From contig JARLIQ010000061.1 of assembly GCA_031291645.1 (NCBI GenBank), positions 1-64,000 of the forward strand: DNA of 64,000 bases, given 5' to 3'. This DNA comes from Caulobacteraceae bacterium (GTDB lineage: Bacteria > Pseudomonadota > Alphaproteobacteria > Caulobacterales > Caulobacteraceae). The notes beneath the pieces were generated by a model. The model did no database searches. It was given only the letters and a program-made list of their open reading frames with translations, and was not told the origin of the DNA. The position numbers and the translations under genes are program-made. This document shows positions 8,223-30,959 of this stretch, piece after piece (the first letter of the stretch is position 1; each line of letters starts with the position of its first letter).

Positions 8223-8603
8223 ATGTGCGCAGGACGACGCGTCCTGATCGTCGACGACGAAGTGCTGATCGCCATGTTGCTCGCCGACATGCTGGAGGAG
8301 CTGGGCTGCACGGTCGTGGGGCCCGCCCATGACCTCGAGACGGCGGCGACCATGGCGAAGGCCGGCGACTTCGACTGGGCTGTGCTCGATCTGAATCTTG
8401 ACGGCGCGCCTGCCTTCCCGATCGCCGCCATTCTCCGGGAACGGACGATCCCCTTCGTCTTCGCCAGCGGCTATGGCGTCGCCGAGCCCGGTTCGGGGTT
8501 CGAGGCGGCGCCGGTGATCCAAAAGCCGTTCGACGTCGGCGAACTGGCCACGGCGCTGCGCCGGCTTGGCGAGGCCGCCGGCCACGGCTCGTCACCAGTC
8601 TGA
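8223..8603 (+). CDS. Single-domain response regulator receiver
   Basis: VLIVDDEVLIAMLLADMLEELG, AVLDLNLDG, PFVFASGYG, IQKPFD; no output domain. Confidence 0.88.
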   Translation: MCAGRRVLIVDDEVLIAMLLADMLEELGCTVVGPAHDLETAATMAKAGDFDWAVLDLNLDGAPAFPIAAILRERTIPFVFASGYGVAEPGSGFEAAPVIQKPFDVGELATALRRLGEAAGHGSSPV

Positions 8604-9038
8604 ATCGTCCGCGTCTTCGTGGACCTGATGCATGGCGTTGCGGACCGCCTCATCCACGCAAGGCGGGTTGTCGGAGGTCGAGATCGGGTATTCGGCGTCC
8701 AGTTCGTCGCACGCCGAGCGCGCCGCACGCTCGATCCGGGTGCGCAGCACATGCGCACCCCATTCGGTGTCGGGGTCGATGTCGCTGTAGTCGACGACGC
8801 GGGAGGCCCGCACCAGTTCGATCGGCGCGCCGGTGGTGGCGGAGCGGCCGACATAGCGCGGGGCATAGACGGTCACGCCCGACATCTCGTCCGGATAGCC
8901 GCCCGACGGGCCGGCGTAGCCCTGGTCGTAGGCCTGCTGGGCCTGGGCCCAGATCGGCGCGGCCGACAGGGCCAGGCTGGCGGCCGCCGCCAAGCCCAGC
9001 CGACCGAGTTGAATTCGCGTGTTTCTGATCGTTACCAT
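8592..9038 (-). CDS. UrcA-family secreted protein
   Basis: 148 aa with signal peptide; VVDYSDIDPDTEWGAHVLRTRIERAARSACDEL, typical UrcA pattern. Confidence 0.75.
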   Translation of the reverse strand: MVTIRNTRIQLGRLGLAAAASLALSAAPIWAQAQQAYDQGYAGPSGGYPDEMSGVTVYAPRYVGRSATTGAPIELVRASRVVDYSDIDPDTEWGAHVLRTRIERAARSACDELDAEYPISTSDNPPCVDEAVRNAMHQVHEDADDSDW

Positions 9039-9135: not shown

Positions 9136-9160
9136 AACGTTGCGCGGCGGACCGGGTTCC
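9136..9160 (-). promoter_or_regulatory. sigma-EcfG (GSR) promoter motif, exact
   Basis: Plus strand AACG-TTGCGCGGCGGACCGG-GTTCC = GGAAC-N16-CGTT on minus, upstream of 8592..9038. Confidence 0.7.
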
Positions 9161-9218
9161 GGCCGACCTCAAGACATTGGTCGAACATCATCGTACGACG
9201 CTGCGTCATCAGGTGGCG

Positions 9219-9243
9219 GCAACCTTAGTCTCATCGGGGCGTT
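9219..9243 (+). promoter_or_regulatory. sigma-EcfG-like promoter (one mismatch)
   Basis: GCAAC-CTTAGTCTCATCGGGG-CGTT, upstream of 9295..9756. Confidence 0.5.
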
Positions 9244-9294
9244 TGACCTTCGTCAGGTGCGCGCAACGCGCGCCGGCAAACGGAGTCCTCGATC

Positions 9295-9756
9295 ATGCGA
9301 GCCGCCCCCCTTTTCGCCGGTCTGGCCGCGCTGCTAGCCGCCTCGGCGACCGCGCCCCTCGCGTTCGGCCAGTCCTATGGCGACAGTCAAGGCTATGGTC
9401 AGCCGCCCGCCTACGACCAGGGCTACCAAGGCCAGGGTCAACAGGACCAGGCCTACCCGCAGAACGGCGACGACCGGGGCTATGCCGAGAGCCAGCGCGA
9501 GTACCAGCGCAGCCAGCAGCGGTACGCCAACGACTATTCCAACTACCAGGACCAGCGCAGCGACTACAACGCCCAGCGGCAGGCCTACGAACAGCGGCGG
9601 GCCGCTTATGAGCGCCAGCGCGCCGACTATGACGCCCAATACGGCGCGGGCGCCTTTGACGACTACTATCGCCGCCATCCCGGCGAATACGACACCCGCT
9701 TCGGCCCCGGCGCCTATGAGCGGGACTTCGGCCGGGCCGATCGCTACGACCGCTAG
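9295..9756 (+). CDS. Secreted low-complexity Tyr/Gln/Arg/Asp-rich protein
   Basis: Signal peptide then YQGQGQQDQAYPQNGDDRGY...YNAQRQAYEQRRAAYERQRADYDAQYGAG; ATG 51 nt downstream of the EcfG-like motif. Confidence 0.7.
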   Translation: MRAAPLFAGLAALLAASATAPLAFGQSYGDSQGYGQPPAYDQGYQGQGQQDQAYPQNGDDRGYAESQREYQRSQQRYANDYSNYQDQRSDYNAQRQAYEQRRAAYERQRADYDAQYGAGAFDDYYRRHPGEYDTRFGPGAYERDFGRADRYDR

Positions 9757-9811
9757 GCCGGTCGGCGCCGCGTCGCCATCCTCCCAGCCGTCGCCCTGGA
9801 GCAACCCGACT

Positions 9812-9997
9812 ATGAACGACATCCCCACGCCATCGACCGAGGCCCGGCCGATCGCGTCGCCGGCGCCCCACCTGAAGACCGACCAGCTGGCCGAAAAGGC
9901 CGAACGGTCGGAAAGCCGGCAGGAGGCCTTGCTGGACGAGGCGATCGAGGAGACCTTCCCCGCCAGCGACCCGGTCAGCGTCAAGCGCATCACCTGA
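9812..9997 (+). CDS. Small hypothetical protein with ETFPASDPVS motif
   Basis: MNDIPTPSTEARPIASPAPHLKTDQLAEKAERSESRQEALLDEAIEETFPASDPVSVKRIT; start chosen within ORF 9377..9997. Confidence 0.65.
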   Translation: MNDIPTPSTEARPIASPAPHLKTDQLAEKAERSESRQEALLDEAIEETFPASDPVSVKRIT

Positions 9998-10032
9998 TCG
10001 CGCCACCGGGGGCGGGCCGAAGGAGCGGCGCA

Positions 10033-10653
10033 TTGGCCAGGGACAGCCTTGCGGCCTACAGGGCCAAACGCGACTTCAACGTGACCGGCGAGCCGAGGGG
10101 CGAGCCCGCGACGCCGGCGTCCGGGCGTGCGCGCTTCGTCATCCAGAAGCACGCCGCAACCCGCCTGCACTACGACCTGCGGCTGGAGCACAAGGATGTG
10201 TTCCTGTCCTGGGCCGTCACCCGCGGCCCCTCGCGCGATCCGCACGACAAACGCCTGGCGGTGCAGGTCGAGGACCACCCGCTCGACTACGGCGACTTCG
10301 AAGGAACCATCCCCAAGGGCCAGTACGGCGGCGGAACGGTCATGCTGTGGGACCGCGGCTGGTGGGCGCCCGAGCCCGGCTTCGACGTGGATGCGGGGCT
10401 TGAGAAGGGCGAGTTGAAGGTCGTCTTCGCCGGCGAGCGGATGCGGGGCGGCTGGGCCCTGGTGCGGCTCAAGCACGACCGCGAGCACGGCAGGCGGGTC
10501 AACTGGCTGCTGATCAAGCATCGGGACGAATTCGTCCACGAACCTGACCCCGACTTCCTGGAGCAGACGGCGACGTCGGTGACCTCGGGCCGGACCATGG
10601 AGGAGATCGCCGCCGGGGCGCCCCTGGAACCGACCCGCACCCGTCGAGTTTAA
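10033..10653 (+). CDS. Stand-alone LigD-type 3'-phosphoesterase domain protein
   Basis: RFVIQKHAATRLHYDLRLEHKDVFLSWAVTRGPSRDPHDKRLAVQVEDHPLDYGDFEGTIPKGQYGGGTVMLWDRG. Confidence 0.9.
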   Translation: MARDSLAAYRAKRDFNVTGEPRGEPATPASGRARFVIQKHAATRLHYDLRLEHKDVFLSWAVTRGPSRDPHDKRLAVQVEDHPLDYGDFEGTIPKGQYGGGTVMLWDRGWWAPEPGFDVDAGLEKGELKVVFAGERMRGGWALVRLKHDREHGRRVNWLLIKHRDEFVHEPDPDFLEQTATSVTSGRTMEEIAAGAPLEPTRTRRV

Positions 10654-10701
10654 TGAGCCATAGGGCGCCGCCCGAACCGCGGCGTCTCAATAACGCCCTT
10701 A

Positions 10702-11103
10702 ATGCAGAAGAGGCTCATGGTCGAAAACCGCGCCCGTCGTGTTCTGATCGCCGATGACGAGACCCTGATCACCATGCTGATCCAGGACATGCTGTCCGAT
10801 CTGGGCTTCGAGACCGTCGGACCGGCCCATCAGTTGACCGAGGCCCTGAGCCTGGCCGAAGAGAGCGCGTTCGACTGCGCGATCCTGGACCTCAACATGA
10901 ACGGGCGGTCGACGACGCCGGTCGCCGAGATCCTGCTCGCGCGCGGCGTCCCGTTCGCCTTCGCCAGCGGCTACGCCGTCTCCGACCTCGGGCCAGCGTT
11001 CGAAGACGTCCCGGTGTTGCAGAAGCCGTTCGACGCCACCGACCTCGCCGAAATCCTCGATCAGCTTCTCGGCTTCCGCGCGGATGCGGCGGCCGACAAC
11101 TGA
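10702..11103 (+). CDS. Single-domain response regulator receiver (paralog of 8223..8603)
   Basis: VLIADDETLITMLIQDMLSDLGFETVGPAHQL, AILDLNMNG, PFAFASGYA, LQKPFD. Confidence 0.88.
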   Translation: MQKRLMVENRARRVLIADDETLITMLIQDMLSDLGFETVGPAHQLTEALSLAEESAFDCAILDLNMNGRSTTPVAEILLARGVPFAFASGYAVSDLGPAFEDVPVLQKPFDATDLAEILDQLLGFRADAAADN

Positions 11104-11342
11104 CCGCGCAACCTGCAGGCGCAGCCGCAGGTCCTTTCGTTGCAACCACCCGCCCTGTTTGGTGGCCGGCCGCCGTCGCGTGGGCCGGTTCCGAGGCGCG
11201 TCTGGCCCCGAGCCACGATGACTTCGCCGTGAGCGGGGAACAAAAACGCCCGCCCGGCGGCTCTTGACTGAGGTTCACCGGTCAGGCGGGGGCGCCTGCG
11301 TCCCCCGGATCGGCCTTTTGCGCTTCGCCAAGGAGAGTTCCG

Positions 11343-12470
11343 ATGAAGATCGCCCAGATCGCACCCCTCTACGAGGCCGTCCCGCCACAGCTCTACGGCG
11401 GGACTGAACGGGTGGTGGCGCATCTGTGCGACGCGCTGGTCCTGTTGGGCCACGAGGTGACCCTGTTCGCCAGCGCCGAGGCTTGCACCCTGGCCGAGCT
11501 GGTCCCCGTGCGGGACCAGGCGATCCGGCTCGATGCCGCGCCGCTGAAGTCGGACCTGGCGGCGCACCTGTCGATGCTGGCCGAGGTCCGCCGGATGAGG
11601 GAGCGGTTCGATATCCTGCACTTTCACACCGACATGCTGCACTTTCCGCTGTTCGAGGACGTGGCCTGCCGGACGCTCACCACCCTGCACGGGCGGCTGG
11701 ACCTGAAGGACCTGCCCGAGGTCTATCGGCGCTGGTCCAAGTTCCCCCTGGTCTCGATCTCGGACAGCCAGCGCGCCAGCCTGCCTTTCGCCAACTGGGT
11801 CGGGACGGTCTACCACGGCATACCCCAGACGCTGCTCCCGCCGAGCACGCGCCCGCGCGGCTACCTGGCCTTCCTCGGTCGCATCTCGCCGGAGAAGCGG
11901 CCCGACCGCGCCATCGCGATCGCCAGGCAGCTGAACATGCCGCTGAGGATCGCGGCCAAGGTCGATCCCGCGGACACGGCCTATTTCCACGACCAGATCG
12001 AGCCCCTGCTGGACCACCCCCTGATCGAGTACGTCGGCGAGATCGGCGACGACCGGAAGGCCGAGTTCCTGGGCGGCGCCGAGGCCCTGCTCTTTCCGAT
12101 CGACTGGCCCGAGCCATTCGGCCTTGTGATGATCGAGGCCATGGCCTGCGGCACGCCCGTCGTGGCCTTTGGCTGCGGCTCGACGCCGGAGATCATCGAC
12201 CACGGGGTGACCGGCTTCATCGTCTCGGACGAGGCGGAGGCGGTGCTGGCGGTGGAGGCGGCGCGCGGCCTGGACCGGCGCGAGGTGCGACGCCGGTTCG
12301 ACCGGCGCTTCTCCGCCACCGCCATGGCCCGCGGCTATCTGGACATCTACGCCGACCGGCTCGCGCACGCGCCGTTCGCGCCGGACGTCGCGGCCGAGGC
12401 CGGCGGCGAGGACGAGCCTGATCCGGCGCGGCCCGCGGCGCCCCCTCCCGCGCTCGCCCGGATCGCGTAA
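11343..12470 (+). CDS. Glycosyltransferase family 4
   Basis: MKIAQIAPLYEAVPPQLYGGTERVV..., GRISPEKRPDRAIAIARQL, EPFGLVMIEAMACGTPVVAF. Confidence 0.9.
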   Translation: MKIAQIAPLYEAVPPQLYGGTERVVAHLCDALVLLGHEVTLFASAEACTLAELVPVRDQAIRLDAAPLKSDLAAHLSMLAEVRRMRERFDILHFHTDMLHFPLFEDVACRTLTTLHGRLDLKDLPEVYRRWSKFPLVSISDSQRASLPFANWVGTVYHGIPQTLLPPSTRPRGYLAFLGRISPEKRPDRAIAIARQLNMPLRIAAKVDPADTAYFHDQIEPLLDHPLIEYVGEIGDDRKAEFLGGAEALLFPIDWPEPFGLVMIEAMACGTPVVAFGCGSTPEIIDHGVTGFIVSDEAEAVLAVEAARGLDRREVRRRFDRRFSATAMARGYLDIYADRLAHAPFAPDVAAEAGGEDEPDPARPAAPPPALARIA

Positions 12471-12482
12471 GCTCCCGGTCCC

Positions 12483-14621
12483 ATGGACGATCTCGCGGAA
12501 ACCTCCGCCCTGGTCGAGGAAGGCGCGGCCGTCGCCGAGCTCTTTTCGCTGAAGGACGGCGACGCCTTCCTGGTGGCCGACCATCAGGGGGACATCAGCG
12601 GCGGCGCGGACGGCCTGTTCGACTGCGACACCCGCATCCTGTCGCGCTTCGTCTTCCTGGTCGGCGACAGGCGGCCCGCGCCCCTGTCGTACGGGCTGTC
12701 GAAGGACAACGCCGTCTTCACCCTGCACGGGGCCAACCGCCGCCTGCCGCCGGTGGGAGGACGTGCGGCGCCCCGGGGGGTGATTCACATCGAGCGCAAG
12801 CGGGTGCTGTGGGCCGAGCGGCTGTACGAGCGGGTGCGCTGCGCCAACTTCGGCCTGGACGAGGTGATGCTGCCCCTGGCGTTCGAGTACGCGGCCGATT
12901 TCCTCGACATGTTCGAGGTGCGCGGCATGAAGCGCACCGCGCGCGGGCGGCTCGACGACACCGCGATTTCGGGCCGGCAGGTGATGTTCGGCTACGAGGG
13001 GCTCGACGGCGTGCGGCGGGCCAGCGCCGTGGCCTTCTCCGAGCCGCCCTGGCGCATGAGCCACCGGCGGTCGGAGTTCATGTTCACCCTGGAGCCGGGC
13101 CAGCACGTCGAGCTCTATATCGAGGCGGGTCCACAGCCGCTCGATCCGCCCACTGCCGAACGGTTCGACGAGGCCCTGGCGGGCGCGCTGCAGGCGGTGG
13201 GCGAGCGCGAGTGGCGCGGGGCCAGGCTCGGCTGCTCCGACCGCGCCTTCACCCGCTGGCTGCAGCAGTCGCGCGCCGACGTCGCCCTGCTGACCACCGA
13301 CCTGCCGACGGGCCCCTACCCCTACGCCGGCATCCCCTGGTTCTCGACCCCGTTCGGGCGGGACGGCATCCTGACCAGCTGGCAGATGCTGTGGCTGGAC
13401 CCGTCGCTGGCGCGCGGGGTGCTGCGCTACCTCGCCAGCCGCCAGGCCGGCGAGGTCTCGGCCTTCCGCGACAGCCAGCCCGGCAAGATCATGCACGAGA
13501 CCCGGCGCGGCGAGATGGCGGCGATGAACGAGATCCCGTTCGGCCTCTATTACGGCGGCGTCGACACCACGCCGCTGTTCGTGGCCCTGGCCGGGGCCTA
13601 CCTGCGCCGCACCGACGACGCCGCCCTGATGGCCGAGCTGTGGCCCGCGCTGAACGCCGCCGTCGGCTGGATCGAGCGCTATGGCGATTCCAACGGCGAC
13701 GGGCTGGTCGACTACCAGCGCGGGGCCGAGACGGGGCTGGCCAACCAGGGCTGGAAGGACAGCGAGGACTCGGTGTTCCACGCGGACGGCCGTATTGCGG
13801 GCGGTCCGATCGCCCTGGTCGAGGTGCAGGCCTACGCCTACGCCGCCTTCCAGGCCATGGCCGGGATCGCCGGGCGGCTGGGCGAGGCCGGCGCGGCGGA
13901 CTGGGCGGACAAGGCCGAGGCCATGCGCGAGCGGGTGGAGCGCCGCTTCTGGATGGAGGAGTCCGGCTTCTACGGCATCGCCATCGACGGCGATGGCCGG
14001 CTCTGCACGCCGGCGACGTCGAACGCGGGCCATCTGCTGTTCATGGGCCTGGCCGAGCCCGGCCGGGCGGTGCAGGTCACCCGGCGGCTGCTGTCGCCCG
14101 CCTTCGACAGCGGCTGGGGCGTGCGCACCCTCGCGGACGGCGCCGCGCGGTTCAACCCTATAAGTTACCACAACGGCTCGGTCTGGCCGCACGACACCAG
14201 CCTGTGCGTCGCGGGCATGGCCCGCTATGGCGAGCGCGCCGGGGTGGTCAAGCTGGTCGACGACGTCTTCCAGGCCGCCCAGGCGTTCGACATGCGCATG
14301 CCCGAACTGTTCTGCGGCTTCCCACGCCAGGCCGGCGAGCCGCCGATCGCCTATCCGGTGGCTTGCATGCCGCAGGCCTGGGCGGCCGGCTCGGTGTTCC
14401 TGCTGCTGCAGGCCTGCCTGGGCCTGACCGTCGACGCCGCCCGGCGCGAGGTGCGGCTGGTGCGTCCGGTCCTGCCGACCGGCGTCGACGCCCTGGCGAT
14501 CGACGACCTGGAGGTCGCGGGCGCCAGGATCGGCCTGCGGCTGCGGCGCTCCGACGGCGCGGTGGCGGTCAATCCTGCGCCGGGGTCCGATCCCTCGATC
14601 GCCCTGGTGATCGAGGGGTGA
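12483..14621 (+). CDS. Amylo-alpha-1,6-glucosidase / glycogen debranching-like protein
   Basis: N-term GDE domain (LFSLKDGDAFLVADHQGDISGGADGLFDCDTRILSRF), C-term (alpha/alpha)6 (PWFSTPFGRDGILTSWQ, NPISYHNGSVWPHDTSL). Confidence 0.88.
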   Translation: MDDLAETSALVEEGAAVAELFSLKDGDAFLVADHQGDISGGADGLFDCDTRILSRFVFLVGDRRPAPLSYGLSKDNAVFTLHGANRRLPPVGGRAAPRGVIHIERKRVLWAERLYERVRCANFGLDEVMLPLAFEYAADFLDMFEVRGMKRTARGRLDDTAISGRQVMFGYEGLDGVRRASAVAFSEPPWRMSHRRSEFMFTLEPGQHVELYIEAGPQPLDPPTAERFDEALAGALQAVGEREWRGARLGCSDRAFTRWLQQSRADVALLTTDLPTGPYPYAGIPWFSTPFGRDGILTSWQMLWLDPSLARGVLRYLASRQAGEVSAFRDSQPGKIMHETRRGEMAAMNEIPFGLYYGGVDTTPLFVALAGAYLRRTDDAALMAELWPALNAAVGWIERYGDSNGDGLVDYQRGAETGLANQGWKDSEDSVFHADGRIAGGPIALVEVQAYAYAAFQAMAGIAGRLGEAGAADWADKAEAMRERVERRFWMEESGFYGIAIDGDGRLCTPATSNAGHLLFMGLAEPGRAVQVTRRLLSPAFDSGWGVRTLADGAARFNPISYHNGSVWPHDTSLCVAGMARYGERAGVVKLVDDVFQAAQAFDMRMPELFCGFPRQAGEPPIAYPVACMPQAWAAGSVFLLLQACLGLTVDAARREVRLVRPVLPTGVDALAIDDLEVAGARIGLRLRRSDGAVAVNPAPGSDPSIALVIEG

Positions 14622-15382
14622 GCGCCGCCGGGCCAGGGCGGCTGCCCCCGCCGCCCCTGCTCGCGCCGCCGCGGCACGCCCTGTTCGCCGACCTCGACGG
14701 AACCCTGGCGCCGATCCGCCCGCGCCCCGGGGACGTGAGGCCCGACGCCGAGCGCGCGCGGGTGCTGGACGCACTGTCCGGGGCGTTGGACGGCGCGGTG
14801 GCGGTGATCACCGGCCGGGCGCTGGAGGACGCCGACCGCATCCTGGAAGGCCGTATCGCCGCCATCGCCGCCGTTCACGGCCTGCGCCGCCGCAATGCCG
14901 CCGGGATCGTGCTCGAAGCCGCCGCCGTTCCCCCGCCTGCGAGCGTGCGCGAGGCGATCGCGGCCTTCCTCGCCGCCCATCCGGCGCTCGCCGCCGAGGA
15001 CAAGGGCCTGGCCATCGCCCTGCACTATCGCGCCCAGCCCTCGGCCGCCGGCGCCTGCCGCACCCTCGCCCGGCGGCTGGCCGCCGAGCATGGACTGGGC
15101 GTCCAGGACGGCGACATGGTCGTCGAACTGCGCGCTGCTGGCCCGACCAAGGGCGAAGCCGTCGAGGCCTTCATGGCCGAGCCGCCGTTCGCCGGGCGCA
15201 CGCCCGTCTTCATCGGCGACGACCTGACCGACGAGCACGGCTTCGCCGGCGCCGAGCGGCTGGGCGGCCACGGGGTGATCGTGGGGCCGAGGCGGCCGAC
15301 CCGCGCGCGGTTCGCCCTGGACGACGTGGGCGCCGCCCTGGCCTGGCTGGCGGCCAGCGCGGGCCTCGGCCCGCAACCCTGA
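14618..15382 (+). CDS. otsB: Trehalose-6-phosphate phosphatase
   Basis: GTG start overlapping the previous stop; LFADLDGTLAPIRPRPGDV, VITGRAL, PVFIGDDLTDEHGF. Confidence 0.92.
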   Translation: MSAAGPGRLPPPPLLAPPRHALFADLDGTLAPIRPRPGDVRPDAERARVLDALSGALDGAVAVITGRALEDADRILEGRIAAIAAVHGLRRRNAAGIVLEAAAVPPPASVREAIAAFLAAHPALAAEDKGLAIALHYRAQPSAAGACRTLARRLAAEHGLGVQDGDMVVELRAAGPTKGEAVEAFMAEPPFAGRTPVFIGDDLTDEHGFAGAERLGGHGVIVGPRRPTRARFALDDVGAALAWLAASAGLGPQP

Positions 15383-15471
15383 GCATTCATCGACGCGCTT
15401 TTTCGGGAACCAGCCCACAGCCCAACCGCTTGTGAACACGCGATCTGGGCCGTTCCGCCCAGGCCTGCGGA

Positions 15472-16869
15472 GTGGCCGCCATCAGCCGCCTCATCGTCGT
15501 CTCCAACCGGGTCAGTCCCCCGGAGCACCGAAAATCAGGCGCGGCCGGCGGCCTGGCGGTCGCGGTCGCCGCGGCGCTTCGCCAGTATTCCGGCTTCTGG
15601 TTCGGCTGGAGCGGCCAGACCATCGAGACCTTCACCGGCGAGTTGCACACCCGGCGGGTCAACGACGTCGAGGTGGTCACCCTCGACCTCGAGGACGCGG
15701 ACTATCAGGAATATTACAACGGCTACGCCAACGGCACGCTCTGGCCGCTGTTCCACTACCGGATCGACCTAACCGCCTACGAGCGTTCGTTCGGCGAGGG
15801 CTACGAGCGGGTGAACCGGCGCTTCGCCGCGGCTCTCGCCCCGCTGGTGCAGCCAGGCGACCTGATCTGGGTGCACGACTACCACCTGATCCCCCTCGGC
15901 CGGGCGCTGCGCGAGCTGGGGGTGACCAATCCGATCGGCTTCTTCCTGCACATCCCCTGGCCGGCCCCGCAGCTCTTGACCACCCTGCCGCGGCATCGCC
16001 AGCTGGTGGAAGCGCTGTTCTCCTACGACCTCTTGGGCCTGCAGACCGACGAATGGCTGTCGGCGTTCGAGGCCTATGTGCTGGGCGAGGCGGGCGGCAG
16101 CCGGGAGGCGGACGGGCGGCTGCGCGCCTTCGGCCGCTCGGTCCGCGCCCAGGCCTTCCCGATCGGGCTCGACTTCGGCGACTTCCAGAAATTCGCCCGA
16201 AGCCGCACCGCCGACCGCGCCTACGACCGGATGGCCGCCCACAGCGCCTTCCGCGCCATGATCATCGGCGTGGAGCGGCTGGACTATTCCAAGGGCCTGG
16301 AGGAGCGGCTGGCCGGGTTCGAGAAGTTCCTGGAAGACAACCCCGACATGGTCCGCAAGGTGCTCTACCTGCAGATCGCGCCGACCTCGCGCGAGGAGGT
16401 GGAAGCCTACCAGGACCTGCGCGCGCGGATCTGGGCCCTGGCGGGGCGGATCAACGCGGCCTGGGCCGACATGGACTGGGCGCCGATCCAGTACGTCAAC
16501 CGGACCTATTCCCGGGTCGAGCTGGCCGGGGTCTATCGCGCCGCCCGCGTCGGGCTGGTCACGCCGCTGCGCGACGGGATGAACCTGGTGGCCAAGGAGT
16601 ACGTCGCCGCCCAGGACCCGTCGGACCCGGGCGTGCTGGTGCTGTCGCGCTTCGCGGGGGCGGCGCGCCAGATGCACGAGGCGTTGATCGTCAACCCGTT
16701 CAGCCGCGAGGAGCTGGCCGATGCGCTGAAGCGCGCCCTGGCCATGGAGCGGGCCGAGCGGACGCGGCGCTGGGAGGCGCTGATGGACGGGCTGAGCCGA
16801 ACCGACGTCCACGCCTGGCGCGACGACTTCGTCGCGGCGCTGAAGGCCGCCCGCGACGGGCCCGCCTAG
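15472..16869 (+). CDS. otsA: Trehalose-6-phosphate synthase
   Basis: RLIVVSNRVSPPEHRKSGAAGGLAVAV, WVHDYHLIPL, ERLDYSKGLEERL, LRDGMNLVAKEYVAAQ; GTG start. Confidence 0.95.
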   Translation: MAAISRLIVVSNRVSPPEHRKSGAAGGLAVAVAAALRQYSGFWFGWSGQTIETFTGELHTRRVNDVEVVTLDLEDADYQEYYNGYANGTLWPLFHYRIDLTAYERSFGEGYERVNRRFAAALAPLVQPGDLIWVHDYHLIPLGRALRELGVTNPIGFFLHIPWPAPQLLTTLPRHRQLVEALFSYDLLGLQTDEWLSAFEAYVLGEAGGSREADGRLRAFGRSVRAQAFPIGLDFGDFQKFARSRTADRAYDRMAAHSAFRAMIIGVERLDYSKGLEERLAGFEKFLEDNPDMVRKVLYLQIAPTSREEVEAYQDLRARIWALAGRINAAWADMDWAPIQYVNRTYSRVELAGVYRAARVGLVTPLRDGMNLVAKEYVAAQDPSDPGVLVLSRFAGAARQMHEALIVNPFSREELADALKRALAMERAERTRRWEALMDGLSRTDVHAWRDDFVAALKAARDGPA

Positions 16870-16941
16870 AGCCAGTTCGGATCAAGCGGGATCGCCTGAC
16901 GCGATAAAACGGGCTCCAATTCAAAGTATCAGAGCGTGACG
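16867..16941 (+). repeat. Putative alphaproteobacterial intergenic palindromic repeat (REP/RIME-like)
   Basis: tagagccagttcggatcaagcgggatcgcctgacgcgataaaacgggctccaattcaaagtatcagagcgtga: GAGCC...GGCTC ends and 'aattcaaa...agagcgtga' tail resemble dispersed intergenic repeats of the class; only one copy noticed here. Confidence 0.4.
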
Positions 16942-17207
16942 GACGCTGAGACCACCTCGTCGTCCTCCCGGCCCTCCCAGACCGAGGCCGAGGGCGCGCT
17001 GGCGACCGCGGCGGTCATCGCGCTGTCCGCGGCCGACGCCCGACCGCCCGGCGTGGACGAGCTGTGCTCATCCGGCGGCAGGGCTCCGATCACCGGGTGG
17101 GTGAAGCGGATGCGGTTGATCTGGCCGGGCGCAGCCTCGAAACGCGTCTCCCCGGCGACGCGCTGGCCGTGATCGATGGCCGGTTGGGATGGCTTGGTCG
17201 TGTCCAT
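16929..17207 (-). CDS. Hypothetical protein
   Basis: 92 aa MDTTKPSQPAIDHGQRVAGETRFEAAPGQINRIRFTHPVIGALPPDEHS...; GGACC-N16-CGTT (17253-17233, minus) upstream. Confidence 0.55.
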   Translation of the reverse strand: MDTTKPSQPAIDHGQRVAGETRFEAAPGQINRIRFTHPVIGALPPDEHSSSTPGGRASAADSAMTAAVASAPSASVWEGREDDEVVSASVTL

Positions 17208-17342
17208 GAGCGGGCTCCTCGTCCGAGGGAACAACGCGCCGGACCGTCCGAAGGTCCTCGGGCCGTCCTGCGCGCCGGCGCGGATCGCTCGGCCGTCTCG
17301 GGCGTTACCCAAGTCGATCGACGGCAAACGGGAGACACGGAC

Positions 17343-17930
17343 ATGGACGACGCCCCTCAGCGCGGCGCGGCGAAGGCCGAGCCGTTCCTCAGCGACATCA
17401 AGACCCTGCGCCAGCGCGCGCGCCAGCACCTGGAGGACGGGGCCGTCACCCAGACCTACGGCGGCGACGTCAAGCGGACGATCGATATCCTGCAGACGGT
17501 GCTGGCGACGGAGCTGGTCTGCGTGCTGCGCTACACCGAACACGCCATCACCGCCTCCGGCATCTCGAGCCAGGCGGTGAGGGGCGAGTTCCGCCAGCAC
17601 GCCAAGGAAGAGCACGAGCACGCCCTGGCGGTGGCCGAGCGGATCAGCCAGCTGGGCGGGACGCCCAACTTCGACCCCGAGGGCTTGGCCGGCCGCTCGG
17701 CCTCCCAGTACGCCAAGGGCGAGAACCTGGTCGACATGATCCGGGAGAACCTGATCGCCGAGCGGATCGCGGTCGACCACTACCGCGAGCTGGTCCGCTA
17801 CTTCGCCGACCGCGACCCGGCCACCCGGGTGATGATCGAGGGGATCCTGGCGGTCGAGGAGGAGCACGCTGACGACATGCACGACCTTCTGGTCGCGCAC
17901 GAGGGCAAGCCGATGCTGCCGGACAACTGA
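17343..17930 (+). CDS. Ferritin-like/bacterioferritin-type (Dps-like) protein
   Basis: 195 aa; ELVCVLRYTEHAITASGIS, FRQHAKEEHEHALAVAERISQLGG, ILAVEEEHADDMHDLL; GGATC-N16-CGTT at 17282-17306 upstream. Confidence 0.85.
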   Translation: MDDAPQRGAAKAEPFLSDIKTLRQRARQHLEDGAVTQTYGGDVKRTIDILQTVLATELVCVLRYTEHAITASGISSQAVRGEFRQHAKEEHEHALAVAERISQLGGTPNFDPEGLAGRSASQYAKGENLVDMIRENLIAERIAVDHYRELVRYFADRDPATRVMIEGILAVEEEHADDMHDLLVAHEGKPMLPDN

Positions 17931-17942
17931 AGCGCCGGAGCT

Positions 17943-17967
17943 GGAACATCGCGAACCGGCGGACGTT
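17943..17967 (+). promoter_or_regulatory. sigma-EcfG promoter motif, exact
   Basis: GGAAC-ATCGCGAACCGGCGGA-CGTT, upstream of 18009..18329. Confidence 0.75.
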
Positions 17968-18008
17968 GAAACGGATCAGTGGAGCCAGGCGATCGGAGGA
18001 GGACGGCC

Positions 18009-18329
18009 ATGCCCCGCGGCGACAAGACCAAGTACACCGACAAGCAGGCGCGCAAGGCCGACCACATCGCGGAGGGCTACGAGCGCCGCGGCGTCTCGGA
18101 GACCGAAGCCGAACGCCGCGCCTGGGCCACGGTCAACAAGGACGACGGTGGCGGCAAGGAGCCGGGCGGCTCCGGCCACGGCCACAACACCGGGCATCCC
18201 GCCGCGCATAAGGGCGGCCGGATCGGCGCCGAGGCCTCGGCCCACCGTTCCGCCGCCGACCGCTCCGTCTCAGCCCGCAAGGCCGCCGCGACGCGCAAGC
18301 GCAACGCCGAACACCACGCCTCGCGCTGA
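18009..18329 (+). CDS. Small Gly/His/Lys-rich stress protein ('plasmid stabilization'/KGG-like family)
   Basis: MPRGDKTKYTDKQARKADHIAEGYERRGVSETEAERRAWATVNKDDGGGKEPGGSGHGH... Confidence 0.75.
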   Translation: MPRGDKTKYTDKQARKADHIAEGYERRGVSETEAERRAWATVNKDDGGGKEPGGSGHGHNTGHPAAHKGGRIGAEASAHRSAADRSVSARKAAATRKRNAEHHASR

Positions 18330-18345
18330 GCCGGGGAGCGGGGCG

Positions 18346-19614
18346 ATGCTGCGAAGGTTCCTCAAACGGGTGATCCGGCATGGGCGCCTGAGGGTGGTGA
18401 TGGACGGCCAGGCGCCGTTCGAGGTCGGCGAGCCGCCCTCGGGCGGGCGGCCGATCCTGACCTTGCGGATCAAGGGGCGGCTGACCCCGCTCAAGCTGCT
18501 GCTCAATCCGGACCTGGAGGCCGGCGAGGCCTATCAGGACGGGCGGCTGGTGGTCGAGAACGGGACGCTGCCTGAGCTGCTGGAGCTGGTCGGACGCAAC
18601 CTCTCCGAACGGCCGCTCTCGCGCCTCCAGCGGCTGGCGGCCCGGCTGTCCAGCGGCCGGACGGTCAATGGACGGCGCGCCGCGCGGCGCAACGCGGCCC
18701 ACCACTACGACCTCTCCGGGACGCTCTACCGGGCCTTCCTGGACCAGGACCTGCAGTACTCCTGCGCCTACTTCCGACGCGGGACCGAGTCCCTGGAGGA
18801 GGCCCAGCTGAACAAGAAGCGGCACATCGCCGCCAAGCTCGCCCTGGCCCCCGACCAGCACGTGCTGGACATCGGCTGCGGCTGGGGCGGCATGGCGCTG
18901 TTCCTGGCCGAGGCCGCGCCGGGCGTGCGGGTGACCGGCGTCACCCTGTCGCGCGAGCAGCTCGACGTCGCGCGCGAGCGGGCCGTTCGGGCGGGCCTCG
19001 CCGACCGGGTGCGCTTCGAGCTCTGCGACTATCGCGACCTGGGCGGCCGGTACGACCGGATCGTCTCGGTCGGCATGTTCGAGCATGTCGGCCCGACCCA
19101 CTACGAGGCCTTCTTCCAGGCCGTCCGCAACCGCCTGACCCCGACCGGCGTGGCCCTGGTCCACACCATCGGCCGGCGCGCGGGCGGCGGGGTCAACCCC
19201 TGGATCGCCAGGCACATCTTCCCCGGCGGCTACATCCCAAGCCTGGCCCAGATCGCCGAGGCGGTCTCGGCCACCCCGCTGTGGATCACCGACGTCGAGG
19301 TCCTGCGGCTGCACTACGCGCGCACGCTGGACCTCTGGCGCGAGCGGTTCATGAGCCGGCGCGAGGAACTCGCGCGGGTGTACGACGAGCCGTTCCTGCG
19401 CATGTGGGAATTCTACTTCGCCGCCTGCGCGATGAGCTTCCGCCACGGCGACCTGGCGGTCTTCCAGGTCCAGCTCGCCGCCGACGTCGACGCCCTGCCG
19501 ATCGCCCGGGACTACATGATGGCCGAGGAGCAACGCCTGGCGGCCGGCCGGCGGCGGACGCTCACGGTTGTCGGGGGCGTGGGCGCCCCGGCAGCGCCTG
19601 GATCAGGAAGCTGA
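18346..19614 (+). CDS. Cyclopropane-fatty-acyl-phospholipid synthase family SAM methyltransferase (copy 1)
   Basis: HHYDLSGTLYRAFLDQDLQYSCAYFRRGTESLEEAQLNKKRHIAAKL, VLDIGCGWGGMALFLAE, GMFEHVGPTHYEAFF. Confidence 0.9.
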   Translation: MLRRFLKRVIRHGRLRVVMDGQAPFEVGEPPSGGRPILTLRIKGRLTPLKLLLNPDLEAGEAYQDGRLVVENGTLPELLELVGRNLSERPLSRLQRLAARLSSGRTVNGRRAARRNAAHHYDLSGTLYRAFLDQDLQYSCAYFRRGTESLEEAQLNKKRHIAAKLALAPDQHVLDIGCGWGGMALFLAEAAPGVRVTGVTLSREQLDVARERAVRAGLADRVRFELCDYRDLGGRYDRIVSVGMFEHVGPTHYEAFFQAVRNRLTPTGVALVHTIGRRAGGGVNPWIARHIFPGGYIPSLAQIAEAVSATPLWITDVEVLRLHYARTLDLWRERFMSRREELARVYDEPFLRMWEFYFAACAMSFRHGDLAVFQVQLAADVDALPIARDYMMAEEQRLAAGRRRTLTVVGGVGAPAAPGSGS

Positions 19615-19744
19615 TCAGCAGCAGGGCGGCGAAGACCAGGAACAGAACCTTGGCCATCGCCGCGGCGATCCCGGCCAGAGCGAAGAAGCCGAGCGCGCCG
19701 GCGAGCACGGCGAAGGCTGCGAAACACAGGGTCCAGTAGAGCAT
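19562..19744 (-). CDS. DUF1328-type small membrane protein
   Basis: MLYWTLCFAAFAVLAGALGFFALAGIAAAMAKVLFLVFAALLLISFLIQALPGR; start moved to MLYW. Confidence 0.85.
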   Translation of the reverse strand: MLYWTLCFAAFAVLAGALGFFALAGIAAAMAKVLFLVFAALLLISFLIQALPGRPRPRQP

Positions 19745-19798
19745 CCGGCTCTCCTCTGCGCCGGACGGCTCCGGCAGGCCCCCGCGCCCGGGTGAACC

Positions 19799-19824
19799 AA
19801 CGCCGTCGCGGCCGGACGGGTTCC
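19799..19824 (-). promoter_or_regulatory. sigma-EcfG promoter motif, exact (N17)
   Basis: Plus strand AACG-CCGTCGCGGCCGGACGG-GTTCC upstream of the DUF1328 gene. Confidence 0.7.
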
Positions 19825-19849
19825 GCATCCTGGGACCTGCGCCCTCGCA

Positions 19850-20833
19850 TCATCCCGCGGGCGGCGCCTCGACGTGGCCGCCGAAGCCGAAGCGCATGGC
19901 CGAGAGCAGGCGTTCGCCGAAGGTGTGCTCCTCGCGCGAGCGGAAGCGGGCGAACAGCGAAGCCGCCAGGACGTCGGCCGGGACCGCCTCCTCGATCGCC
20001 GCTTCGATGGTCCAGCGGCTCTCGCCGCTGTCGGCCACCGATCCGGTGAAGCCCGCCAGGCCCGCGTCGTCCGCCAGGGCCTGGGCGATCAGGTCCAGCA
20101 GCCAGGAGGAGACGACGCTGCCGCGCCGCCAGACCTCGGCGATGTCGGTCAGGTTCAGCGCGAACCGCTCGCCCGGCGGCAGGACCTCGGCGCTCTTGTT
20201 CTTCAGGATGTCGAAACCCTCGGCATAGGCCTGCATCAGGCCGTACTCGATGCCGTTGTGGACCATCTTGACGAAGTGGCCGGCGCCGGGCGGGCCGGCG
20301 TGGATGTAGCCCAGCTCGGCGGTCTTGCCGGCGTCCGGCTTGCGGCGCGTGCGCGGGATGTCGCCGAGGCCGGGGGCGAGGGTCGCCAGGATCGGGTCGA
20401 TCAGGGCCAGCATCTCGGGCTCGCCGCCGACCATCATGCAATAGCCGCGATCAAGGCCCCACACCCCGCCGGAGGTGCCGACGTCGACGTAATTCAGCCC
20501 GCGGGCCTTGAGCGCCGCGGCGCGGCGGATGTCGTCCTTGTAGAAGCTGTTGCCGCCGTCGATCAGAAGATCGCCCGGCTCCATCCGCGCCGCCAAGGCC
20601 TCGATCGTCTCCTCGGTCGGCGCGCCGGCGGGCAGCATCACCCAGAAGATCCTGGGCGGCGAGAGCTGGGCGACCAGGTCGGCGAGGTCAGCGGCGCCCG
20701 ACGCGCCATGGCCGGCGACCGCCGCCACGGCCTCGGCGCTGCGGTCGTAGACCACGCACGAATGGCCGCCCCGCATCAGCCGGCGCGCGATGGCCCCGCC
20801 CATCCGGCCGAGGCCGATCACTCCAATCTGCAT
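19850..20833 (-). CDS. gnd: 6-phosphogluconate dehydrogenase (decarboxylating, short form)
   Basis: [96 protein letters not shown]. Confidence 0.93.
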
Positions 20834-20882
20834 CTTGGTCTCCCAGACTCCGCAGCGCGCGCAAGCCGCGCCCGGCGGCCGA

Positions 20883-23009
20883 TCATTCCGGCTTCGCCCG
20901 CGCCGCCGCAAGTCGGGCCCGGGCGGCCTCGCACACATGCCCGGCGGTGAAGCCGAAGCGCTGCATCAAGGGCCCGATCGGGGCGGAGGCGCCGAAGCCG
21001 TGCATGGCGATGACCTCGCCCTCGGGGCCGGCGTAGCGGTCCCAGCCCAGGGGGGCGGCCGCCTCGACGGCGACGCGGGCGATGACGGCGCTGGGCAGCA
21101 CCGTTTCGCGGTAGGCGGCGTCCTGCGCCTCGAACAGCTCGAACGAGGGCATGGAGACGACGCGGGCGCGCACGCCCTCGGCCGCCAGCGCCTGTTGGGC
21201 CGCGACGCACAGCGAGACCTCCGCCCCGCTCGCCATCAGGATCACCTCCGGCGCGCCGCCCGGCGCGTCGGCCAGCACATAGGCGCCGCGCGCTACGCCC
21301 GAAGCCGGCGCATAGCGCGTGCGGTCCAGCGTCGGCAGCGGCTGGCGCGAGAGCACCAGGCAGGCCGGCGCGTGCGGCCGCGACAGCACGGTGCGCCAGG
21401 CCTCGGCCGTCTCGTTGGCGTCGGCGGGGCGCAGGACGACGAGGCCGGGGATGGCGCGCAGGCCGGCCAGCTGCTCGATCGGCTGGTGGGTCGGCCCGTC
21501 CTGGCCCAGGCCGATGGAATCGTGGGTGAAGATGAAGACCACCGGCAGCTTCATCAGCGCCGCCAGCCGGATCGGCGGGCGCATGTAGTCGCTGAACACC
21601 AGGAAGGTGCCGGTGAAGGGGCGAAGGCGCGTGAGGGCGAGGCCGTTGCTGACGGCGCCCATGACGTGCTCGCGGACGCCATAGTGGAAATTCCGCCCGC
21701 CATAGAAGGCGGACTCGAAGTCGCCCGCGTCCGCCGCCTCCAGCCGGGTCTTGGTCGAGGGCGCGAGGTCGGCCGAGCCGCCCAGCAGCCAGGGGAACCG
21801 CGGGGCGATGGCGTTCAGCACCTTGCCCGAGGCCTCGCGGGTGGCCACGCCCTTTTCGTCCGACTCGAAGACGGGGATGTCCCGGTCCCAGCCCTCGGGC
21901 GCCTGGCCGGCCAGCATCTGGCGAAGGGCGCGGGCCTCGTCCGGATGGGCCGTCCCGTAGTCCGCGACCATCGCGTCCCAGGCCTGGCGCAGCGGACGGC
22001 CGCGCCCCCCGACGCCGGCCTGAAACCGCTCCGGCACGCCATCAGGGACCAGGAACCGGGCGTCCTCCGGCCAGCCGTAGGCGCGCTTGGTCAGCCGCAC
22101 CTCCGCCTCGCCCAGCGGATCGCTGTGGGCCTTGGCCGTGCCCTGCTCGTGCGGCGAGCCGTAGCCGATGACGCTGCGCACGATGATCAGGGTTGGCCGG
22201 TCGGCGCTCGCCTTGAACGCCTCGACGGCGCGGGCGAAGGCCTCGCGGTCGTTGGCGTCGTCCACCGTCCGGACCGCCCAGCCGTAGGCTTCGAACCGCC
22301 TGGCCACATCCTCGTCGAACGCCAGGTCCGCGGCGCCCTCGATGGTCACGCTGTTGCGGTCGTAGATCCAGCAGAGGTTGGACAGCTTCAGGTGGCCCGC
22401 GAGCGAGCCGGCCTCGCCGGAGACGCCCTCCATCAGGTCGCCGTCGCTGCAGATCGTGAACACGTCGTAGTCGAACAGCGGAAAGTCGGGCCGGTTGAAC
22501 CGCGCAGCCAGCCACCGCTCGGCGATGGCCAGGCCGACGCTGACGCCGACGCCCTGGCCGAGCGGGCCAGTGGTGGTCTCGACGCCGGTGGTCAGCCCGT
22601 ACTCCGGATGGCCGGCGCAGACGCTGTCCAACTGTCGGAACGACTTGATGTCGTCCAGGCTGATCGCCGGCTGGTCGGTCGGCCGCCCGTCCAGCCCCAG
22701 CCGGCGCACGCCCGCCAGGTGGATCAGGGCGTAGAGCAGCATCGAAGCGTGGCCGTTCGACAGCACGAACCGGTCGCGGTTCGGCCATTCGGGATGGTCC
22801 GGGTCATAGCGCAGGAAGCGCCGCCAGAGGGTGTAGGCGACCGGGGCCAGGCCCATGGGCGCGCCGGCGTGGCCGGACTTGGCCTCTTCGACCGCGTCGA
22901 TGGCCAGGGTGCGGATGGTGTTGACGGCGAGGTCGTCGAGGTCGGCGCCGGCGCCCCCGCGATCGTCGGGCGCCCGCGGCGCGAAAGCCGGACCGGTCTG
23001 GTGTGGCAT
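20883..23009 (-). CDS. tkt: Transketolase
   Basis: [81 protein letters not shown]. Confidence 0.95.
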
Positions 23010-23049
23010 CTGGCCCGTCAACTCCAGTCTCTGTCCGCCCGGTGGGGGC

Positions 23050-23074
23050 AACGGTCAGCGCAGACGGCGGTTCC
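23050..23074 (-). promoter_or_regulatory. sigma-EcfG promoter motif, exact, upstream of tkt-gnd
   Basis: Plus strand AACG-GTCAGCGCAGACGGCG-GTTCC. Confidence 0.7.
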
Positions 23075-23160
23075 GCGCCGCAGCCGATGTCGCCATGTTT
23101 CCCATCCCGGCGCCCGGCGCCAGCAGGGTCTTGGACCGGCCAGCGCGTCAGACCAGCGCG

Positions 23161-23370
23161 TCAGGCGACCGCGTCGGACGGTCCGACGGCGCGCCGAACG
23201 CTGAACAGCAGAGCGTCGTCGGACCAGACCTCGACGGCCACGTGGTTGGGCGAGTCCTCCAGGCGTTGGAGGGCGATCTCGCGCACCCGCCTTTCGTCGC
23301 GCGCGGTCGCGAAATCGAGCGTCGAGACCGAGTAGCGGGTGTCTTGGATATAGAGGCTGTAGGTACGCAT
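23161..23370 (-). CDS. Hypothetical small protein
   Basis: 69 aa MRTYSLYIQDTRYSVSTLDFATARDERRVREIALQRLEDSPNHVAVEVWSDDALLFSVRRAVG; coding-like composition. Confidence 0.65.
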   Translation of the reverse strand: MRTYSLYIQDTRYSVSTLDFATARDERRVREIALQRLEDSPNHVAVEVWSDDALLFSVRRAVGPSDAVA

Positions 23371-23609
23371 CGTCACATCCTTCGATACGACGGCCGCGGC
23401 GTCGCACCCCGGCAGGAGCGCAATCGCCGCCGCCCACCTTATGTCCTGAGATCGCCGTGTCCATACCCAAGTTGGGTGAGGCCAAGCCGGCGGACGCGGC
23501 CGGCCGGAGCGACGATCCACAGGCAATTCACCCACGCCGGTGAACCGGAGCCGCGCGGCGGAGCGATCCTGAGGCGCGGAAGCCTGGTCAAGGGCGTGGC
23601 GACCGCGGA

Positions 23610-23783
23610 TCAGCAGCACGGATGGCCCTCGCGCTGGTCGGCGCGGCGCAATATTTCGAGAAACTCCTCGGGAACCGGATCGTGCACGACGGGGTCCAGC
23701 ATCCCACGCAACCGCAAGGCGATGGCGTGCTGCGTGATCCGCGCGTCGCGCAGCTTGAGTTCCCAGTCCAGGGCCTTGTCCAT
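23610..23783 (-). CDS. NepR-like anti-sigma factor (57 aa, absent from the supplied ORF track)
   Basis: Reverse-strand translation MDKALDWELKLRDARITQHAIALRLRGMLDPVVHDPVPEEFLEILRRADQREGHPCC*; matches NepR core pattern (LR..yd.VV..PVP..FL.LL). Confidence 0.75.
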   Translation of the reverse strand: MDKALDWELKLRDARITQHAIALRLRGMLDPVVHDPVPEEFLEILRRADQREGHPCC

Positions 23784-23856
23784 AGTCCGCCCACCGACCG
23801 TCCCGCCGCCGCTCGCCGCCGGACCATCGTCCTCATTGAATTATCGCTGCCCAGGC

Positions 23857-23881
23857 AACGCCCTGGCGGCGCTCAGGTTCC
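23857..23881 (-). promoter_or_regulatory. sigma-EcfG promoter motif, exact, upstream of the NepR-like gene
   Basis: Plus strand AACG-CCCTGGCGGCGCTCAG-GTTCC. Confidence 0.75.
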
Positions 23882-28631: not shown

Positions 28632-30959
28632 CTAGTACTTGTAGCTGACGCTCACCCCCACGGTGCGCGGGGTGGTGATCGCCTCGCGCCGGGTGTCGGG
28701 CAGGTCGGCCGATATCGCCGCGGGCAGGCCGGTTTCGCCGATCACGTCGAACACGTTGTCGACGAACAGGGCCGCTTCCCAGGTCGAGCCGCTGTCGATC
28801 CCGACCTTCAGGTTGGTGATCGTATAGCCCTTGCGCAGGTAGAAGGGGCTGGACCGGTCGTACAGGGCGTGGGAGCTGCTGATATAGCCGACGTCGACCC
28901 GGCCGAAGGCCGAATAGTCGTCGCGCAGCGGCACGGTGTATTCGGCCGAGCCGGAGACGTTCCAGTGCGGCACGTCCAGCAGCGTATCGCCCTTTTGCGC
29001 GCCTGTGCCGGGGATACTGTTGGACAGGGTCGCGTCGGTGTAACCGAAGCCGCCGCTGAGGGTCAGGCGCCGGATCGGACGGAAGGTGGCTTCCAGCTCG
29101 GCGCCCTTGGACACCGCCTTGCCGAAGTTGGCGGTGATGTTGAAGCCGCAGCCCAGCACGATCTGCTGCTGCACCTGGCTCCAATCTATGTAGTAGAGCG
29201 AGCCGTTGACCGTCAACCGGCGGTCGAGCCAGCTAGTCTTGGCCCCGACCTCGTAGTTCCAGAGGGTGTCGGGGTTGTAGCGCACCAGTTCGGTGGCGCT
29301 GAGCCCCAGGGCGGCGAGGTCGGCGCCGCACACGTTCGCCGGCGCCGGATTGTTCGGCCCGCCCGGGCGATAACCCTTCGACGCCGTGGCGTAGACCATG
29401 TGGTCGGGGTCGATCTGCCAGTCGATGCTGAACTTCGGATTGACCCCGCGGTCGGTCGAGCTGTTCGTGACCGACGAGAAGCCGCCGTTAAAGACGCCGT
29501 CGCCCGACTGGTAGAAGCGCTGGTCCACCTCGAAGGCGCGGAAGCCGGCGCGGGCGGTCACGCCATGGCCGAGGGCCAGGGACGCCTCGCCGAAGATCGC
29601 GCTCTCCTGCAGCGTCGCCTTGCGCACCCCGTGATAGAACTGCTCGCCGCCGAACGGCGAGCCGAAGGCGGCGTCGTAGCCGGCCGGGTCGGGGATGGTC
29701 GAAGACAGCGGCGCGAACGTGCGGTGGTAATAGACGCCGCCGATGATCTGGAACGGCCCGCTGAAGCTCGAAGCCGCACGGATTTCCTGGGTGAACTCCT
29801 TGTTGAGGTACACGCCGGTCATCGCGTCCGGATAGACGTAGGTCTGGGGCGGGCTGAAGTAGTAGTAGAGGACCTTGCTGGCGTCCTCTCTCACCTTGAC
29901 CTCACGATCATAGTAGGACGTCGAGGAAACCAGTTCGAACAGCGGGAACTGCTTGTGGATCGCGACGTTGGCGATCATCGAGCGCTGGGTGCTGACCTCG
30001 GAGACGTCGCGGGTCTGGATCAGGTTGTTGCTGTTCAGGCTGCCCGGCGGCACGTCGATCTGGAACGGCGCGCCCAGGCGCATGTACTGGTACATCACCG
30101 ACGGGGTGATCGTGAGGGTCGGGTCCGGCTGGAAGCGCAGCTGCAGCCTGAAGCCCTCGGTGTTCTCGGTGTTGACGTTCTTCTTGACCGGGCTGCCCGG
30201 CTCGGCGGCCAGGATGTTGGTCGGGTCGATCCGGTACTGGTCGATGAAGCCGCCCTGGTAGCGGTAGTAGGCGCTGGCGCGCAGGGCCAGGACGTCCTTG
30301 ACCAGCGGGACGTTGATCAGGACGTTGCCCATGGCGTTGGGCGCGCCGCCGTCGGTCGCCGAGCCGGTGGCCTGAAGCTGCAGGCCGTAGCGGTCGAGCA
30401 CCGGCTGGTTGGTCACGTACTTGATCGTGCCGCCCATCGAGCTGGAGCCATAGAGATCGCCCTGCGGCCCGCGCAGCACCTCGATGCGGCTGATGTCGAA
30501 CACCGACGGGTCGATCAGCCCACGCAAGGCCAGCAGCGAGGCGTTGCTGTCGGCCGCGATGGGGGTGTCGTCCAGATAGTAACCCACCGTCCCGGCCGAT
30601 CCGGCCGTGGAGGAGATGCCGCGGATGATCAAGACGTTCTGGCCCGGACCGGCCGAAGTGACCGCCAGGGACGGCGCGATGCGGGCCACGTCCGACAGGG
30701 ACTGCACGCCCTGGCGCTCCAGCTCCGCGCCGCTGATGGCGGTGACGCTGATCGGCACGTGCTGGACGTTCTCCGACCGCTTCTGGGCGGTGACGATCAC
30801 CTCGTTGACCGCCGTGGCCCCCGGAGCCTCCGCGGCATGTGCCGCCGCGCCGAGCATCGTGGCCGCGCCGAGCGCGGTGGTGGCGAAAAGCGCACGCATG
30901 GCCGTGCTCGCGCGGCGGGCTTCGGCCCGCGCCGCGCCATTCCGATTGAACCCAGCCAT
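28632..30959 (-). CDS. TonB-dependent outer-membrane receptor
   Basis: NEVIVTAQKRSENVQHVPISVTAISGAELERQGVQSLSDVARIAPSL plug, IEVLRGPQGDLYGSSSMGGTIKYVTN, C-term TPRTVGVSVSYKY. Confidence 0.95.
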   Translation of the reverse strand: MAGFNRNGAARAEARRASTAMRALFATTALGAATMLGAAAHAAEAPGATAVNEVIVTAQKRSENVQHVPISVTAISGAELERQGVQSLSDVARIAPSLAVTSAGPGQNVLIIRGISSTAGSAGTVGYYLDDTPIAADSNASLLALRGLIDPSVFDISRIEVLRGPQGDLYGSSSMGGTIKYVTNQPVLDRYGLQLQATGSATDGGAPNAMGNVLINVPLVKDVLALRASAYYRYQGGFIDQYRIDPTNILAAEPGSPVKKNVNTENTEGFRLQLRFQPDPTLTITPSVMYQYMRLGAPFQIDVPPGSLNSNNLIQTRDVSEVSTQRSMIANVAIHKQFPLFELVSSTSYYDREVKVREDASKVLYYYFSPPQTYVYPDAMTGVYLNKEFTQEIRAASSFSGPFQIIGGVYYHRTFAPLSSTIPDPAGYDAAFGSPFGGEQFYHGVRKATLQESAIFGEASLALGHGVTARAGFRAFEVDQRFYQSGDGVFNGGFSSVTNSSTDRGVNPKFSIDWQIDPDHMVYATASKGYRPGGPNNPAPANVCGADLAALGLSATELVRYNPDTLWNYEVGAKTSWLDRRLTVNGSLYYIDWSQVQQQIVLGCGFNITANFGKAVSKGAELEATFRPIRRLTLSGGFGYTDATLSNSIPGTGAQKGDTLLDVPHWNVSGSAEYTVPLRDDYSAFGRVDVGYISSSHALYDRSSPFYLRKGYTITNLKVGIDSGSTWEAALFVDNVFDVIGETGLPAAISADLPDTRREAITTPRTVGVSVSYKY

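Follow-up and report, generated by a model that had tools for sequence, protein, structure and literature searches.

A probable satellite cluster of EcfG-type stress-regulon genes, including a second NepR, in a Phenylobacterium-like member of the Caulobacteraceae

The interval 9136-23881 of the DNA analysed here (the window, a stretch of 64,000 nucleotides) carries a series of short sequences of the form GGAAC-N16/17-CGTT, and the question it raises is whether these are EcfG-type promoters of general stress response (GSR) genes, or merely chance matches in a GC-rich genome with stress-like gene names read into them. The host is a Phenylobacterium-like member of the Caulobacteraceae with a genome of 4.40 Mb in 148 contigs; our literature searches found no GSR study for its lineage within that family. 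The evidence set out below makes it very probable that the interval is a genuine cluster of stress-regulon genes, though a fairly ordinary one. The features concerned are these:

8592..9038 (-): UrcA family protein, 148 aa (TIGR04433, 48 bits, cutoff 25)
9136..9160 (-): EcfG-type promoter, exact, N16, 122 nt before the urcA-like ATG at 9038
9219..9243 (+): one-mismatch site GCAAC-N16-CGTT, 76 nt before a gene at 9295
10626..10650 (+): one-mismatch candidate GGAAC-N16-AGTT, 5' of a single-domain response regulator gene at a distance of 76 nt
15406..15430 (+): one-mismatch match GGAAC-N16-CGCT before otsA, unsupported
17282..17306 (+): GGATC-N16-CGTT, a variant of the EcfG-type site, ~60 nt 5' of the gene for the ferritin-like protein
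17343..17930 (+): ferritin-like / Dps-like protein (PF00210, E 1.7e-23)
17943..17967 (+): EcfG-type promoter, exact, N16, 5' of the KGG-like gene
18009..18329 (+): KGG-like small basic protein, 106 aa, start corrected to 18009
18346..19614 (+): cyclopropane-fatty-acid synthase-like protein, cfa1 (PF02353, E 1.4e-88)
19562..19744 (-): DUF1328 small membrane protein, 60 aa, start corrected to 19744
19799..19824 (-): EcfG-type promoter, exact, N17, 5' of the DUF1328 gene
19850..20833 (-): 6-phosphogluconate dehydrogenase-like protein, gnd (PF03446, PF00393)
20883..23009 (-): second transketolase, tkt, start corrected to 23009 (TIGR00232, 797 bits)
23050..23074 (-): EcfG-type promoter, exact, N16, 5' of tkt-gnd
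23610..23783 (-): second NepR anti-sigma factor, nepR2, 57 aa, an orphan, start corrected to 23783
23857..23881 (-): EcfG-type promoter, exact, N16, 5' of nepR2, in the 134-nt gap after cfa2

The motif and its background

Seven exact sites are present in the window. The five listed above lie in gaps 5' of genes, on the same strand as the downstream gene and 65-122 nt before the corrected starts; all five had been located, with the same strands, by a sequence-only reading of this DNA. The two additional sites, at 15730-15754(-) and 29945-29969(+), are antisense and fall within otsA and a TonB-receptor gene, respectively. That reading had also estimated about one exact site per 64 kb by chance, a fair figure given that shuffled sequences yield a mean of 0.67 for the window (sd 0.78, maximum 3). 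Between 8 and 26 kb there are five exact sites with N16 and one with N17, as against two when the 13 remaining spacer lengths in the range 10-24 are pooled. Similarly, 20 gene-upstream windows, each of 250 nt, together contain five exact and five one-mismatch sites at N16/17, while the 13 other spacers give only six sites in all at one mismatch or less (Poisson P ~0.003 for the one-mismatch N16/17 sites alone).

That GGAAC-N16/17-CGTT is the EcfG motif in this organism follows from the sites at GSR genes of the same genome, from the nepR/phyR gaps of the family and from spacer counts in Phenylobacterium-like loci. The core locus of the host, with phyR, nepR, ecfG and a HisKA_2 kinase gene, is on contig C32, where the nepR/phyR gap holds divergent exact sites serving phyR and nepR-ecfG. 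Beside it lies the gene for the gsrN sRNA (Rfam RF01529; L033:5579-5683(+)), which starts 11 nt after the CGTT of an exact site, and an entericidin gene of the same genome also has an exact site upstream. Both divergent sites are found in 29/31 nepR/phyR gaps of the family, and when these 31 gaps were scanned for spacers of 12-21, 63/63 exact sites proved to be N16 or N17. In six Phenylobacterium-like loci (L097-L102) the count is 45 exact sites for N16/17 and seven for thirteen other spacers. Promoters of sigma-T in Caulobacter have likewise been defined by strict GGAAC and CGTT boxes (PMC5869019). An extended rule taken from the nepR/phyR gaps, GGAAC[CT]...[AG]CGTT, was dropped as a filter because the Phenylobacterium-like DUF1328 sites have G or A after GGAAC.

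The same genome encodes a second EcfG-type sigma factor (L263:1387-2025(+), contig C102), 44% identical to the first and with an exact site of its own. The promoters of the interval might thus be real and yet be served mainly by this sigma factor, or by a different ECF sigma whose -35 box is similar, the cluster then forming a sub-regulon. There is a precedent in C. crescentus, where part of the SigT regulon is under SigU control (PMC8103513). However, phyR, nepR-ecfG and gsrN carry the very motif found in the interval and nothing distinguishes the cluster sites, so we consider such a division of labor improbable.

A motif of nine fixed bases is of limited specificity, and the genome-wide test (pattern searches with 3-kb flanks) makes this plain: there are 54 exact sites in the 4.40 Mb, against 43 for the reversed pattern. 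Most of the 54 (about 32) are therefore probably chance matches, and any single exact site could be one. By an automatic rule (outside predicted genes, with a same-strand gene start within 250 nt, the genes being predicted by a crude third-position G+C method), 16/54 motif sites qualify and 0/30 of the reversed control (Fisher P 4e-4). A check by hand added six sites that the gene predictor had missed (phyR, nepR-ecfG, entericidin, gsrN, DUF1328 and nepR2), for a total of ~22, five of them in the 14.7-kb interval; as this check covered motif sites only, the comparison with the control is confined to the automatic counts.

With sites scattered uniformly in simulation, a 14.7-kb stretch holds five of the 54 with P 0.0016, six of 54 with P 6e-5 and five of 20 promoter-like sites with P about 1e-5. 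The five or six exact sites thus form a significant cluster, with a simulated P of 1e-5 to 2e-3 depending on the definition used. Equal motif density elsewhere in the genome had been named beforehand as the result that would refute a stress-response reading; in fact, site density in the cluster exceeds that of the genome at large, and promoter positions are taken by copies of the motif but not by those of its reversed control. A pure chance origin draws on the modest excess of 54 over 43 and on the many exact sites that lie inside genes or have no gene behind them. Against this stand the controls with other spacers and with the reversed motif, the promoter positions of the sites, their clustering and their conservation among orthologues described below, and we judge such an origin very improbable indeed.

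Genes behind the sites

At the left end of the cluster, the search for urcA orthologues returned too few of them for a count of site conservation. The one-mismatch site at 9219..9243 is plausibly a second promoter, divergent from that of urcA, its GCAAC box being found among the putative EcfG sites of S. melonis (PMC6599016), and the site at 10626..10650 is also plausibly of the EcfG type. Single-domain response regulator genes, at 8223-8603(+) and 10702-11103(+), flank the urcA region; the Caulobacter GSR employs such a regulator, MrrA (PMC5964349). The gene at 10033-10653(+) encodes the 3'-phosphoesterase domain of DNA ligase D as a stand-alone protein and lies close to a set of glucan/trehalose genes (gt1, gde, otsB, otsA); ligD-domain and otsBA genes are likewise neighbours in three further family genomes. 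The match before otsA itself was rejected as a conserved promoter, because the look-alikes in relatives sit in a reading frame (NYPQTYS) and vary at its wobble positions only; it is probably coding sequence of the gene upstream of otsA. Another one-mismatch site, 17257-17233(-), has no gene behind it. Within the stretch no supported EcfG-type site was found for otsA, gde, gt1 or cfa2, which counts against reading it as an EcfG cluster. The list of one-mismatch sites in the sequence-only reading has consequently been pruned: 17282(+) stands as a conserved variant and 9219(+) and 10626(+) as plausible sites, but 15406(+) and 17257-17233(-) are unsupported.

The GGATC variant with N16/17 also occurs 5' of 5/12 ferritin orthologues, and the ferritin gene is probably served by it. 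The next promoter, before the KGG-like gene, probably serves cfa1 as well. A Pfam search of the KGG-like protein gave no match. Orthologues were detected in 10 of 99 other genomes searched, and most of these ten have a one-mismatch N16/17 site near the start, mainly with GGTT at -10; GGTT is also among the putative EcfG sites of S. melonis (PMC6599016). The DUF1328 assignment falls below cutoff both for PF07043 (E 6e-5) and for the PRK13682 family matches (4.5e-15 at best). Copies of this gene in the six Phenylobacterium-like loci have an exact site 5' in 8/8 cases.

The start of tkt was moved to the ATG at 23009 because the listed TTG at 23051 falls at the -10 box. This is a second transketolase gene, another tkt being present on contig C132, and gnd, which is also near tkt in three congeners, is probably co-transcribed with it. 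An exact site precedes 3/8 orthologues of the second transketolase versus 0/21 housekeeping tkt genes; the 5/8 orthologues without an exact site count against the EcfG-cluster reading. Between nepR2 and tkt there is a 69-aa ORF (23161-23370(-)) with no family match and a 34% relative in locus L091.

An orphan second NepR

The protein encoded at the right end of the cluster scores 34.4 bits against PF18557, above the Pfam cutoff of 25.7, and matches the C. crescentus-type NepR chain 3T0Y_B (E 8e-10); we rely only on the region aligned with that chain. Over the alignment it is 46% identical to the canonical NepR of the same genome. Against the NCBIfam equivalog NF051865 it obtains 64.2 bits, below the curated cutoff of 100 bits, and for this reason we treat it as a paralogue, NepR2, and do not file it as a canonical NepR.

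Besides the host, 17 of the 149 family genomes have a second Pfam NepR match (E 0.001 or better), which exceeds the curated cutoff in 13 of them; among the proteins inspected, those of L088 and L091 are long and probably not NepR. Most of the remainder lack the FLxILRRAD end, and most second NepRs of the family are divergent, with no EcfG site upstream. The exception is genome G008 (locus L077): its second NepR ends in LLRRAD, an exact EcfG site lies 147 nt 5' of the gene, and an ECF sigma gene follows directly; no ECF sigma gene directly follows the orphan copy of the host. In four congeners no second NepR was found. Six genomes matched by the NepR2 protein were rejected as sources of orthologues, the matches being canonical nepR loci beside phyR, and nepR2 has no clear orthologue set among the family genomes searched, although its promoter site is exact and well placed.

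With only 57 aa, an orphan position and, in an alignment by eye, Leu in place of the canonical aromatic residue, at a position that seems to be one reported to matter for NepR function, NepR2 might be a degenerate or otherwise inactive small protein that applies no brake, the rest of the cluster being plain stress genes. The NepR paralogue META1p2700 of Methylobacterium, which showed no PhyR binding (PMC4814048), would be a parallel. Nevertheless, most of the NepR core is kept, including FLEILRRAD, the Pfam cutoff is passed and an exact EcfG-type site stands 98 nt upstream. We consider an inactive NepR2 somewhat unlikely, and it would in any case be compatible with the satellite-cluster reading that we prefer.

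A satellite of the EcfG regulon

We regard it as highly likely that the interval forms a satellite of the EcfG general-stress regulon, and we infer its EcfG dependence, as we do the operon extents and the action of NepR2. The partner switching that governs the GSR is established (PMC8103513). In the host, PhyR and NepR are both supplied from contig C32, where the core locus lies; stress would lead PhyR to capture NepR, and EcfG would be freed. RNA polymerase carrying EcfG would then start at the GGAAC-N16/17-CGTT sites to give at least five transcripts (urcA, KGG-cfa1, DUF1328, tkt-gnd and nepR2), and the ferritin gene would probably join through its GGATC variant. The predicted products fit protection of envelope and lipids, iron handling and pentose-phosphate metabolism. 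NepR2, made only once EcfG is active, would probably bind EcfG and/or PhyR and so damp the response. In S. melonis, an EcfG-regulated NepR paralogue has been shown to act in negative feedback, with its authors favouring PhyR antagonism (PMC6599016), and negative feedback has been suggested for META2p0735 of Methylobacterium (PMC4814048). The more specific proposal, that EcfG induces from this cluster an orphan anti-sigma factor which can bind EcfG itself, and that the duplicated tkt-gnd pair gives the pentose phosphate pathway a branch dedicated to stress, we offer only tentatively and would not favor at present.

That the sites mark GSR genes, as originally proposed, is supported by the presence of EcfG, PhyR, NepR and the HisKA_2 kinase, by known GSR targets with the same motif and by several conserved sites. 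The accompanying description of an "island" is acceptable for a cluster of regulon genes, but not for a mobile or regulatory-core island, since the core locus (phyR divergent from nepR-ecfG) is absent from the interval and lies on another contig, and since relatives keep these genes elsewhere.

The system resembles the Caulobacteraceae EcfG (sigma-T / ECF15) regulon in its -35 and -10 boxes, its spacers and its core genes (phyR, nepR-ecfG, the HisKA_2 kinase, gsrN, entericidin). EcfG-type promoters also precede the genes of second NepR-type proteins in S. melonis Fr1 (NepR2; PMC6599016), M. extorquens (META2p0735; PMC4814048) and locus L077. The S. melonis gene numbers of nepR2 (#1448) and ecfG (#1447) are consecutive, whereas the host gene is away from any ecfG and beside tkt and cfa genes. 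This kind of cluster is already known, and the host cluster with its NepR2 is an added case.

For the Caulobacteraceae lineage of the host, these results provide a motif-based, control-tested, partial map of the regulon. They also illustrate the limits of a nine-base motif, most of whose exact matches in the genome are chance-like, with position, spacer and orthologue checks singling out the sites likely to be real. To a family whose other NepR-like paralogues are mostly divergent, they add a second NepR. Furthermore, GSR targets cluster physically: in the Phenylobacterium-like loci examined (L097-L102), the core phyR-nepR-ecfG sits inside a denser cluster of 5-10 exact sites per 20 kb, while in the host the dense target set is on a contig away from the core. 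If the orphan NepR2 does bind EcfG, one burst of transcription would make both the protective proteins and the brake.
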